From NCBI RefSeq assembly GCF_005405185.1, contig NZ_BJDO01000001.1, forward strand, positions 1 through 60,040: a stretch of DNA of 60,040 nucleotides, read 5' to 3'. Below, piece by piece: positions 19,264 through 24,871 of this stretch. Positions within the stretch are counted from its first letter, which is position 1; each line of letters begins with the position of its first letter. The DNA comes from Secundilactobacillus hailunensis (GTDB lineage: Bacteria; Bacillota; Bacilli; Lactobacillales; Lactobacillaceae). Under the pieces are notes generated by a model that saw only the letters and a list, made by a program, of their open reading frames with translations, was not told where the DNA came from and made no database searches. The translations under genes and the position numbers were made by a program.

Positions 19264-21768
19264 TTATAGCGTTTCAAAACTAATTCGAGCACCCACTTCT
19301 TGTGTCGTGAGCCCCAACTGGTCAGGTAGCTGCAGCTGCTTAAACGGGAAGGTCCCGCGAACTTGCGAGCGCCGGTCCGAGCGAATATCCACTGCTAACT
19401 TCGCAATCAGATCCTCATCGATCTCACCCAAGGCTTGCCGAACTAACATGCGTACCCAGTTAATCCCCGTCACCTTATTTAAGTAGGCAATGGTCGTCAG
19501 CCGTGTCGGCCGCACCCCTGCAAACTGAGGTGCCTGCTGACCATTAGTTGTATATAGCATCTGGACCATGCCAGTCCGTTTGTGGGCACCAAGATAGTCC
19601 TTAGCATGGGCGATGATCGCCGTTAACTGCTGATCCGTTAAAGTGGCCGGCGTGCGCATTAACGTGATCTGGTCCAGCGTTGTTGCAATACCCCGATCCG
19701 AACGCAGATCACTGGCTAAGATCGGTACAATGTGGCCCTCAGTGACGAATAAATCAAGGCCGATATTGGCGTGGTCATTAAGCAGCTCACTACGTTTCTC
19801 TTGATCCGGTGGCAAAATAGAAATCACGTAATTGCGGTGACGCAACTCCCGTGTTAGATAGTGCCGGTTACCGGGAACAAAGATTTTAACGGGGTGTTCA
19901 ATAGCAATGACGTTCATAATGTCCCCTAATTGCACGGGGTCAATGATCTGCTTGTCAGACAACGTTGCAGTTAACGAGCCGGCATTCGGATTGGTATTCA
20001 TGATCACCGTTTGATAACCTGATTTGCGCAGCTGCTTAAGCATTTCGGTTGTAAAATAATCCGCTGAAGCGTTCGGTCCCAGTTGATTGCCGCCACGGCC
20101 TAAGACCAGCACGGTTTTCGCCGAGATCTGCTGGCTTTCATTTTCCAGTTCAAAGGTACTGTAATACGCTGTTGGTGAATTGAGCAGCTCGCCGGCGGAC
20201 GGTTCGATACCTTTATAAGTTGGCGAGATATGATTATCTTGGCCGAGTTTACGAACAGTGTCGATATCGGTATGCCAGATTCGCGCAATCATCCCGTCAC
20301 CAAAACCGTAATAGCGGCCTTCATGTAGCGCATCGACGCCCATTGGATGGGCTTTGATATGGTCTTCAATCTCTAAAATATGTCTTAATTTAACAAAGTA
20401 AAACGGATCAATTTTAGTTAATTCAGTCAGTTCATCGATCTGATATCCCCGTCGCAGTGCTTCAATCAACACGAGAATACGGCTGGACAACGGATGAATC
20501 AGCTGTGAGATCAGCTGTGAATCCGTTAGATCGTTCATTGATGGCAATTCATCTTGCGGACTGAACTGCGATGAACGTAGGGCCTTTAAAATGGCCTCTT
20601 CAGTACTGCGACCCACCCCAATAGTCGAACCCACGGACTTCATGACCGTGCTTAAATGCTGGTCAGCATTTTTGACATCTTCAAACGGCCATAGTGGGAT
20701 TCGGACGACCACGTGATCTAAGCTAGGTTCTAATAACGCCGTCTGTTTAAAATGATAGATCTCTGGCAGATGCACATCTGTCAGTTTTTGATTTAAGTAT
20801 AGATTAGCGGCTACGTAGGCAATCGGATAGCCGGTAGCACAAGCAACCAGTGACGTTCCCCGATCATTATAGGGAGTGACTTTAGTCACGTAGTAGCTGT
20901 TCTCAGAGCTGCCTAACGCAAAATGGGTGTGGACCACGCCGGTAAATTGAAACTGATTGTTAATGGCAAAGGCGGTGTCGCGCAGCGTTTCGTATTCTTC
21001 ATTGCTTAAGGTCAATGTGGGGGTGACCACCATTGAGTCGCCCGAGTGAATCCCGATTGGGTCAATGTTTTCCAAACCGGCAATGAGCACTTGGGTACCC
21101 ATGGCATCACGCATGGAGACTAGTTCAATTTCTTTATAGCCCACGATACTTTGCTCGATCACACACTGCTTGAAGCGCGACCAGGAAAAGCCCCGGGAAA
21201 TCGCGCTGATCATGTCCTGTTCGTTTTCACATAGCATCCGGTTGGTATCGATGCGCGGTGCAATCGGTTTGACAATCACCGGATAGCCAATTTTAGTGGC
21301 CACGTTAATGGCTTCATCTAAAGTTCCAACCGTTTCCGAAGCGATTACAGGAACGCCGACATGGCGCATCACGTCATTGAGCCGATCCGGATTATTAATA
21401 TCCATCAAAGCATCGGCCGGAATGCCCAGCGTTTTCACATCGTTGTCAGCCAATACGCCATTTTCCTGCAGTTCTTGAACCACACTGATTGCCGTTACGC
21501 CACCCACTGAGGCTAAAATTGCGTCGGGCTGTTCCCGTTCAATGATGCGCTGAACGTTATTCGCCGTGACCGCCTGGATGAATATATTGGTTGGCTGAAC
21601 GTCCTCCAGCGCGACTGAAAACGGGTTATTATCAATTAAGAGTGAGCGGATGCCCTGTTTTTTAAAGGCCTGAATGACTTGAACGCAAGCCGCGTCTAAT
21701 TCAGTTTCATGACCAATTTCAGTTGGTCCACCACCGATTATAAGTACTTTTTGAATTTCATTATCCAT
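19264..21768 (-). CDS. Degenerate carbamoyl-phosphate synthase large-subunit-like protein, probably non-catalytic
   Basis: 834 residues, against about 1060 for normal CarB. Start at 21768 with GGGAG; the longer frame to 21909 runs inside the upstream gene. Residues 1-405 align with the first synthetase half (KVLIIGGGPTEIGH, GYKEIELVSMRD, GIHSGDS), but the metal-binding EMNPR block reads KVTPY (296-300), and the paired Gln is His. Residues 406-550 match the oligomerisation region. The second half keeps its pre-ATP-grasp strand (KTVLVLGRGGNQLG) but lacks about 150 residues of the ATP-grasp; its second EVNPR is AGVRP (750-754). It stops soon after FPFKQL, so the allosteric MGS-like domain is gone. 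No frameshift is seen. It follows the CarA-like gene by 4 nt. Confidence 0.85.
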   Translation of the reverse strand: MDNEIQKVLIIGGGPTEIGHETELDAACVQVIQAFKKQGIRSLLIDNNPFSVALEDVQPTNIFIQAVTANNVQRIIEREQPDAILASVGGVTAISVVQELQENGVLADNDVKTLGIPADALMDINNPDRLNDVMRHVGVPVIASETVGTLDEAINVATKIGYPVIVKPIAPRIDTNRMLCENEQDMISAISRGFSWSRFKQCVIEQSIVGYKEIELVSMRDAMGTQVLIAGLENIDPIGIHSGDSMVVTPTLTLSNEEYETLRDTAFAINNQFQFTGVVHTHFALGSSENSYYVTKVTPYNDRGTSLVACATGYPIAYVAANLYLNQKLTDVHLPEIYHFKQTALLEPSLDHVVVRIPLWPFEDVKNADQHLSTVMKSVGSTIGVGRSTEEAILKALRSSQFSPQDELPSMNDLTDSQLISQLIHPLSSRILVLIEALRRGYQIDELTELTKIDPFYFVKLRHILEIEDHIKAHPMGVDALHEGRYYGFGDGMIARIWHTDIDTVRKLGQDNHISPTYKGIEPSAGELLNSPTAYYSTFELENESQQISAKTVLVLGRGGNQLGPNASADYFTTEMLKQLRKSGYQTVIMNTNPNAGSLTATLSDKQIIDPVQLGDIMNVIAIEHPVKIFVPGNRHYLTRELRHRNYVISILPPDQEKRSELLNDHANIGLDLFVTEGHIVPILASDLRSDRGIATTLDQITLMRTPATLTDQQLTAIIAHAKDYLGAHKRTGMVQMLYTTNGQQAPQFAGVRPTRLTTIAYLNKVTGINWVRMLVRQALGEIDEDLIAKLAVDIRSDRRSQVRGTFPFKQLQLPDQLGLTTQEVGARISFETL

Positions 21769-21772
21769 CTGA

Positions 21773-23496: not shown

Positions 23497-24414
23497 CTAT
23501 TTTAATCCCGGTGTCTGTTCTCTAAGCCGATTGACCACCCGCTTAAAATCATCAGGCAGCGGTGCTTCAAAGACCAGTTGTTTACCCGTAACGGGATGCT
23601 TAAAGCCCAACTTTTTTGCGTGCAAGAACTGACCGGAACCGGCAATGGTTTTACGTGGTCCGTAGAGTGGATCGCCAGCGAGCGGATGACCGATGGATTT
23701 CATGTGAACCCGAATCTGATGGGTTCGGCCGGTTTCCAGCCAGCATGAGATCAGCGTATAGTTCAAATAGCGCTCTAAGACCCGGTAGTGGGTAACGGCG
23801 TGGCGACCATCGGCTACGATTGCTTGCTTTTTGCGATCTTTTGGCGAGCGGCCAAGCGGTGCATCAACCGTTCCGCTATCTTGTTTGATCACCCCATGGA
23901 CCAGCGCAATATATTCCCGGAGATTAGTCTTATTTTTGAGCTGTTGGGCTAATGACCGGTGCGCGTTATCGTTTTTAGCAACCATCAAGAGACCCGAAGT
24001 ATCCTTATCGATGCGGTGCACGATGCCGGGTCGATACGTTCCGTTAATGGTGGACAGCGGTGAATGATACAGCAGTGCGTTGACCAGCGTATGATCGGGG
24101 TGCCCGGGTGACGGATGGACTACCATGCCCGATGGTTTGTTAACGACAATGACGTCATCGTCTTCATAAACGATATCGAGGGGAATGTTTTCCGGTTCCA
24201 AGTCCAGTGGCACGGGATCTGGAATCGTGACTTCGATCTGATCGCCAGGTTGTACTTGATATTTAGGCTTTTCAACCTGACCATTGACCAGGACCCGTTT
24301 TTCGTCAATGGCTTGTTTGAGCTGCGAGCGGCTTTCATCGGGCATCATGCTGCTCAGAACTTTATCTAACCGGCCCGTTTGATCCGTAATGGTTAACTGT
24401 TCTTTTCTAGCCAT
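23497..24414 (-). CDS. rluD: RluD-family pseudouridine synthase
   Basis: 305 residues. An S4-like RNA-binding domain (about 12-75) is followed by the RluA/RluD catalytic domain, with the catalytic Asp at D136 in [13 protein letters not shown] and the GRTHQIRVH and [10 protein letters not shown] blocks. It modifies uridines in 23S rRNA; which sites cannot be read here. It overlaps the 3' end of lspA by 8 nt (translational coupling). The lspA-rluD-pyrR order is also that of Bacillus subtilis. Confidence 0.93.
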
Positions 24415-24871
24415 GGTTGGCCTCCGCTTTATCCTCGAAAAATAACACGATCATGATCCAAATGACGCCAATAGTGAGACACGTATCGGCAAAGTTAAAG
24501 ATCGGGAAGTTAATGAAGTCCAGCTGAAACATATCCACGACAAACCCGTTAACCAGCCGATCATAAAAATTACCGAGGGTTCCCGCAATCATGAATGCCA
24601 GGCCGATCTCATACTGCCAGTTGTGACGGTAACGGACTAAAAACCAGATCATCACGGCTAAAGCTACCACCGAGATCACTAGAAATAACCATTGCTGACC
24701 TGCTAGCATACTCCAAGCTGCCCCGTTATTTCGCAGATACGTTAACGACAGGACGCCGGGGAGCACGGTATGGGTACCGCCCAAGGCAATACTCGCCACA
24801 ACCAGGTGTTTGATCCATTGATCAATGAAAAATAATAAAATAATAAATACGGTACTTAGCCCAATTAACAA
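24407..24871 (-). CDS. lspA: Lipoprotein signal peptidase (signal peptidase II)
   Basis: 154 residues with four membrane helices. The catalytic aspartates are D113 (GFVVDMF) and D129 (NFADTC), and the GTLGNFYDR motif is at 98-105. It cleaves prolipoproteins before the lipid-modified Cys, a relevant substrate here being the lipobox protein at 365. The start codon is TTG, with GGGAG eight bases upstream. It is first in the lspA-rluD-pyrR-CPS-like unit. Confidence 0.95.
   Translation of the reverse strand: MLIGLSTVFIILLFFIDQWIKHLVVASIALGGTHTVLPGVLSLTYLRNNGAAWSMLAGQQWLFLVISVVALAVMIWFLVRYRHNWQYEIGLAFMIAGTLGNFYDRLVNGFVVDMFQLDFINFPIFNFADTCLTIGVIWIMIVLFFEDKAEANHG

Follow-up and report, generated by a model that had tools for sequence, protein, structure and literature searches.

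A carbamoyl phosphate synthetase gene pair predicted to be inactive stands next to pyrR and is maintained by purifying selection in Secundilactobacillus and other Lactobacillaceae

In a 60,040-nucleotide stretch of the Secundilactobacillus hailunensis genome (the window), two genes derived from carbamoyl phosphate synthetase (CPS), here called carA' and carB', stand behind pyrR. Sequence comparisons establish that the pair has lost active-site residues, is widely conserved under purifying selection, and occupies a site in common with active pyrimidine (pyr) operons. On balance we favor the reading that the two proteins form a pseudoenzyme complex, derived from CPS, whose selected role is noncatalytic. 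Under this proposal, a CPS pair at the ancestral pyr-operon site would have lost three active sites yet been kept under strong purifying selection, and carbamoyl phosphate, where still made, would be supplied by another CPS. CPS domains, including that for oligomerization, appear to be kept in CarA' and in the first half of CarB', and the two would work through the binding of a partner or ligand. Continued assembly of CarA' and CarB' into a complex is our inference, as is a role for that complex in binding or regulation.

The carA' gene (21773..22843, minus strand) was identified by profile match, and its product has both CPS small-subunit domains at full length, as in Escherichia coli CPS (1bxr). 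A first-pass annotation had called the CPS subunits beside pyrR dead, and comparison with E. coli and with the intact CPS encoded elsewhere in the genome (contig C8) bears this out. The glutaminase nucleophile Cys269 (E. coli numbering) is replaced by Gly and His353 by Phe, whereas the contig C8 enzyme retains the catalytic Cys and His. Gly occupies position 269 in all 51 CarAs of pair loci in our residue table. Across all CarAs examined, Gly is the only replacement for Cys seen at this position, in 53 loci of Lactobacillaceae and in 8 of family f4 (described below), and Cys is kept in 26. Because Ser, Tyr, Phe, Arg, and Trp are also reachable from Cys by a single base change, Gly may itself be selected. 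Eighty positions are invariant in 22 active CarAs; 49 of them are kept in at least 90% of core rows (30 nonredundant rows of the core CarA clade defined below), and 8, including S47, C269, N311, and H353, are lost in more than 90%. G352F and E355D were dropped as marks of a dead CarA, since active Lactobacillales CarAs also show Phe or Tyr and Asp at these positions.

The carB' gene (19264..21768, minus strand) encodes an 834-amino-acid relative of the CPS large subunit, as judged from domain profiles and residue comparison. An 881-amino-acid open reading frame at this position is an overlong call that begins within carA'; the conserved ATG at 21768 is preceded by the Shine-Dalgarno-like GGGAGTGA. 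The carA-carB gene order and the preATP-grasp, first ATP-grasp, and oligomerization domains are recognizable as in E. coli CPS. In contrast to that enzyme (about 1,060 amino acids), CarB' lacks both ATP sites and the allosteric domain, and its second ATP-grasp domain is mostly deleted. Against TIGR01369 it scores 530 bits (cut-off, 1027) and matches up to profile position 635 of 1052. We scored the residues that we take to form the CarB ATP sites and found that in the window most of those in half 1 and all of those in half 2 are gone; in the first ATP-grasp domain, R129, R169 (to Lys), the scored positions of the Gly-rich loop, E299, N301, and R303 are replaced. Over 90% of the 30 core rows have lost R129, E299, R303, and Gly178-180 in half 1 and R675, R715, E841, N843, and R845 in half 2. 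E299, a metal-binding residue in CPS, is Lys in 40 of the 42 core loci and Arg in the other 2, and a positive charge here could favor metal-free binding of a phosphate ligand. Thus, none of the hallmarks of an active glutamine-dependent CPS (Cys269-His353, both ATP-grasp sites, a full-length CarB) was found in the window pair.

Selection on the pair was assessed against Secundilactobacillus silagei, the nearest named relative, whose CarB' is 98% identical. The ratio of nonsynonymous to synonymous substitution rates (dN/dS; Nei-Gojobori method) is 0.011 for carA' and 0.018 for carB', compared with 0.008 for pyrR, 0.020 for rluD, 0.023 for fbpA, 0.020 for fhs, and 0.071 for a DAO-like gene; of the six pairs compared, most others are near or past silent-site saturation. 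By this measure, carA' and carB' are constrained like their housekeeping neighbors and are not a decaying relic. Retained family domains, lost catalytic residues, and purifying selection together give the pair the profile of conserved pseudoenzymes. The constraint on CarA' persists in genera without pyrB, the gene for aspartate transcarbamoylase: between loci L085 and L086, which like L089 and L090 come from pyrB-less genomes, identities are 97% for CarA', 88% for CarB', 97% for PyrR, and 91% for RluD, and between L089 and L090 they are 92%, 80%, 85%, and 83%, respectively. That we are seeing pseudogenes caught in passing is therefore extremely improbable, with dN/dS of about 0.01 to 0.02 and frames open across genera, even though the active sites are lost and CarB' is the faster evolving of the two proteins. 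CarB' is present in all 15 genomes of the genus, fragmented in one (G013). It is in pieces in the Secundilactobacillus similis draft (L012), where lspA is split as well, which makes sequencing error the likely cause.

Several observations weigh against a noncatalytic complex. The faster evolution of CarB' fits a complex less well than the behavior of CarA' does: of 308 CarB positions invariant in active enzymes, only 60 are kept in at least 90% of core rows, and 125 are lost. In the first ATP-grasp domain E215 and H243 remain, as does R306 in many rows, leaving room for an altered catalytic activity. AlphaFold models of CarB' (9 rows; predicted local distance difference test score, 35.4) and CarA' (10 rows; 41.9) were too low in confidence to use, and the CPS fold of both proteins was judged from sequence profiles only. 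On the other hand, CarA' has 87 columns that are conserved in 95% or more of the core rows and CarB' has 65, of which 53 fall within residues 1 to 545 (the first half plus the oligomerization domain), as expected under selection for complex formation. Could the pair instead still be catalytic, as a new ligase or in an ammonia-dependent reaction? The E. coli CarA C269G variant reportedly leaves ammonia-dependent synthesis working, and outside the core one CarB (L121) has the active pattern at 13 of 13 first ATP-grasp positions and another (L147) keeps most residues in both halves. Set against the loss of key ATP-grasp residues of both halves in the core rows, these points leave continued catalysis unlikely in our estimation.

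We next consider how widely the pair occurs. Searching 397 Lactobacillaceae genomes for CarB, with the results tallied by hand, we found a short CarB' in 229 genomes of 21 genera, its shortness being judged from E-values where no open frame was listed. In 223 of the 229, the best E-value is at most 6.5e-144, beyond that of the best verified full-length CarB (8.3e-143, G024). Three more (G015, G019, G041) were counted after an open-frame check, and three are ambiguous (G276, 5.3e-143; G181, 6.3e-142; G182, 5.7e-134 in a 76% complete assembly). Forty loci were read, and each of the 21 genera has at least one locus in the core CarA clade; the core set comprises 42 loci, 14 from Secundilactobacillus and 28 from other genera. 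Genes of loci outside the window were named by best match to window or own-genome proteins or by eye. In all 42 core loci carA' and carB' lie side by side, and all 42 pairs are dead by sequence. The first-pass annotation had raised the question of whether pyrR and short carB genes stay linked across genomes, and they do: pyrR adjoins carA' in 38 of the 42 (exceptions, L098, L099, L102, and L113). In most core loci rluD is also beside the pair, and the outer neighbors vary, with lspA not recognized in L104 to L110 and fbpA found in 28 of 42.

The position of the pair points to its origin. The Bacillus pyr operon runs lspA-rluD-pyrR-pyrP-pyrB-pyrC-carA-carB, followed by further pyr genes, and this arrangement was also observed in Lactobacillales loci. 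The window cluster has the same site and the same order of the genes it retains, whereas attenuators, pyrP, pyrBC, and the downstream pyr genes are missing and the CPS genes are dead. In fourteen loci from other families and from Lactobacillaceae genera without the short pair, the lspA-rluD or rluD site is occupied by a pyr operon whose CPS is active (L130 to L133, L137, L139 to L145, L148, and L149; L142 showed rluD alone). In L134 to L136 and L171, the operon is present and lspA and rluD were not recognized within several kilobases upstream of pyrR, so the lspA-rluD site is not universal. Our preferred interpretation is that the cluster is what remains of an ancestral pyr operon of the Lactobacillales. 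In a CarA tree, the 42 core CarA' proteins form one clade (100/100; bootstrap not settled) among the Lactobacillaceae pyr-operon CarAs; the branches of the remaining dead CarAs are long, and these proteins may stem from one or several further losses.

Intermediates are also found. L147 (G024) has a CarA with Cys-to-Gly and His-to-Asp replacements and a full-length, mildly altered CarB at the ancestral site, and a second, active CPS is found in a pyr operon elsewhere in that genome (L146); L147 has the appearance of an early stage. In L118, L119, L121, and L122 a uracil-permease-like gene, named by eye, precedes carA, and CarB is full length and degenerate; in the L121 CarB (4903-8067), degeneracy is confined to the second half, and its CarA has the Cys-to-Gly change. 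Two separate observations concern canonical operons. In L112 (6882-10079; G042) carB is split into two open reading frames of 853 and 207 amino acids, through a frameshift or a sequencing error, and this locus was excluded from pair counts. In L128 (G050) a second pyrR lies directly behind carB, which places a pyrR gene on either side of the operon.

PyrR readily suggests itself as a candidate partner for the pair, because it stays with the pair while other pyr genes leave and is kept in all 31 core genomes examined. The window pyrR (22874..23410, minus strand; above the NF003548 cut-off) encodes the sole PyrR found in its genome, with the phosphoribosyl pyrophosphate (PRPP) loop and RNA-binding residues present. 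At eight positions presumed to bind RNA, its pattern is that of other Lactobacillales PyrRs except for His at 27; residues 22 and 27, His and Arg in Bacillus caldolyticus PyrR, differ in active operons as well. The idea that PyrR at pair loci has changed RNA-binding residues was dropped, since active and core PyrRs are alike save at position 27, which varies in both. Retention of PyrR merely as a uracil phosphoribosyltransferase is also unlikely, as upp is present in all 25 genomes examined. If PyrR is the partner, what the complex does would hinge on pyrimidine or PRPP status and not on attenuation of the pyr operon. Of all points in our proposal, that PyrR is the partner is the least certain. 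The linkage was inherited from the ancestral operon and is thus weak evidence of partnership; moreover, the pair survives away from PyrR, so we hold the partnership to be a serious possibility that falls well short of even chances.

Nearly as plausible is that the pair works with other partners and its position beside pyrR is merely inherited. The pair has stayed in the four core loci where pyrR is absent from the site, a genome with a degenerate pair and full-length CarB has no PyrR match (G031; assembly 87% complete), and the pair does not need the pyr pathway. This alternative must accommodate the departure of the remaining pyr genes from a site where pyrR has nearly always stayed, and the retention of PyrR in G354 and G072, where no credible attenuator was found, though both have upp.

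The first-pass annotation had gone further, proposing that CarA'-CarB' is a sensor of bicarbonate, ATP, carbamoyl phosphate, or UMP (uridine monophosphate) that through PyrR tunes the pyr operon to inorganic carbon. The conserved linkage on which that sensor rests stands, and PyrR retains its presumed RNA-binding positions apart from H22 and R27. The allosteric domain, which in CPS binds UMP, is gone, as are both ATP sites and the glutaminase, making inherited bicarbonate, ATP, or UMP sensing doubtful. The distribution of pyr genes and attenuators also bears on this. The first-pass observation that no attenuator precedes pyrR is confirmed: the PyrR-binding attenuator RF00515 was not found in the window at the gathering score, nor between 19000 and 27200 even at E≤5, and the rluD-pyrR gap is just 86 bp. 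Elsewhere in the genome three RF00515 matches (54.4, 52.4, and 46.6 bits, with just the 54.4-bit match exceeding the gathering score) precede a nucleobase permease gene, pyrB-pyrC, and pyrF-pyrE, providing potential targets for PyrR; the identity of pyrB was confirmed, and the other genes were named by eye. No RF00515 match at E≤0.001 lies within 5 kb of the pair in any of 39 core genomes (positions compared by hand), and five genomes with active operons (G025, G026, G038, G043, and G044) have a hit directly before pyrR.

No pyrB over the cut-off was found in 14 of the 39 core genomes (G005, G008, G326, G096, G066, G145, G190, G208, G346, G064, G354, G320, G072, and G047). Both carA' and carB' were read in nine of these; in G066, G145, G190, G208, and G346 only CarB' was seen. 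Eleven of the 14 keep one to three RF00515 matches at E≤0.001, and the contexts inspected were a uracil permease gene (G005), a nucleobase permease gene (G145), and upp (G047). No credible match was found in G008, G354 (88% complete), or G072, although the Rfam model may miss divergent attenuators. The best matches in G008, G072, G354, G031, and G015, judged by eye, are weak and none precedes a pyrimidine gene; a weak match upstream of pyrB in G111 looks real. Since 14 of 39 genomes lack pyrB, 3 of these lack a credible attenuator, and pyrR is nonadjacent in 4 of 42 loci, pyr-operon control cannot be the general role of the pair, and we regard the inorganic-carbon sensor as an unlikely explanation, only marginally ahead of continued catalysis. 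In 13 of the 14 pyrB-less genomes CarB' is the sole CarB match, with the two best candidates scored per genome (all six in G008); G005 has a canonical CarB. These genomes also bear on whether the pair serves as a regulatory pseudosubunit mixing with canonical CPS. A recognizable oligomerization domain and a canonical CPS in the S. hailunensis genome would suit such a role, which as a general one is already disfavored by the scarcity of canonical CarB in pyrB-less genomes; we consider it very unlikely. As judged from these distributions, the pair is independent of pyrimidine synthesis, of canonical CPS, and, as far as Rfam shows, of attenuation.

The first-pass annotation had also likened the locus pyrR to PyrR2 of Lactiplantibacillus plantarum. 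Synteny agrees with this in genus g38, inferred to be Lactiplantibacillus: G331 and G232 each have two PyrRs, one of them exactly at the dead-pair locus. The comparison fails in that the window genome has no second copy. The other PyrR of G331, 64.6% identical to that at the dead-pair locus, heads a pyrR-B-C-Aa-Ab-D-F-E operon; this resembles L. plantarum, in which PyrR1 reportedly belongs to an operon and is about 62% identical to PyrR2. The PyrR at the dead-pair locus is probably the orthologue of L. plantarum PyrR2, given the same gene position followed by the dead CPS pair in both g38 genomes. In L. plantarum, pyrR2 is lp_1782 and pyrR1 is lp_2704 (PMC7911632). PyrR1 and PyrR2 are said to respond to pyrimidines and inorganic carbon, with PyrR2 given as the regulator for inorganic carbon (PMC3582564), which, with the synteny, speaks for the inorganic-carbon sensor.

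A second dead pair was found in family f4. We searched 148 genomes of the order, 129 of them outside Lactobacillaceae, and read CarA in only some; among the 129, 98 have a single CarA match and 31 have none. In f4 genus g43, 11 loci were read, selected partly for low CarA score, and 8 have a dead CarA with the Cys-to-Gly change (L138, L162 to L165, and L167 to L169; active, L139, L170, and L171). In these eight, CarB has 577 to 579 amino acids, the pair is beside pyrR with pyrB between in seven, and the dead CarA is the only match in its genome. Across four close pairs, dN/dS is 0.019 to 0.045 for carA, 0.070 to 0.107 for carB, and 0 to 0.023 for pyrB. The values for the dead genes are well below 1, yet the constraint is weaker than on pyrB and pyrR, and CarB is only 25 to 52% identical between distant members. 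We tentatively suggest that a dead CPS complex arose at least twice in Lactobacillales, before the radiation of the 21 sampled Lactobacillaceae genera and in f4, each time by a CarA Cys-to-Gly change and CarB truncation, and that together with PyrR it makes up a regulatory unit able to outlast the pyrimidine pathway; it is perhaps the missing sensor of PyrR2.

We found no description of the dead pair in the open-access literature searched, which excluded the key L. plantarum papers. Because CarA' passes the curated NCBIfam cut-offs for the CPS small subunit (437.9 bits versus 221; 365.7 versus 307), genomes are probably annotated as having a working CPS here, and metabolic models are probably built as if lactobacilli had one at this locus. 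That a dead pair is kept as strictly as its housekeeping neighbors, even without pyrB, hints at a function shared throughout a large bacterial group. For work on the CO2 dependence of L. plantarum and PyrR2, the pair is a new physical candidate. Provided that PyrR2 has been identified correctly, the pyrR2 mutant in the literature may have a polar effect on carA'B', which matters before PyrR2 itself is called a carbon sensor.

The remainder of the locus agrees with the first-pass gene calls: all five genes of the proposed lspA-rluD-pyrR-carA'-carB' series were found as a single minus-strand cluster. It begins with lspA, for signal peptidase II (24407..24871; above the TIGR00077 cut-off), and a gene for an RluD-type pseudouridine synthase (23497..24414; above the TIGR00005 cut-off); the pyrR-carA' and carA'-carB' gaps are 30 and 4 bp. 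The convergent neighbor, outside the cluster, is an fbpA/rqcH-type gene (17494..19209, plus strand) identified by profile match. Between it and carB' lies a hairpin with a 19-bp stem (19220..19260, no strand assigned) that is likely a terminator common to both genes; the terminator scan returned 8 terminator-like sites versus 8.3 in shuffled sequences, and this hairpin is notable for stem length only. Elsewhere in the window, the only Rfam match at the gathering score is a class B RNase P RNA at 33535-33914.

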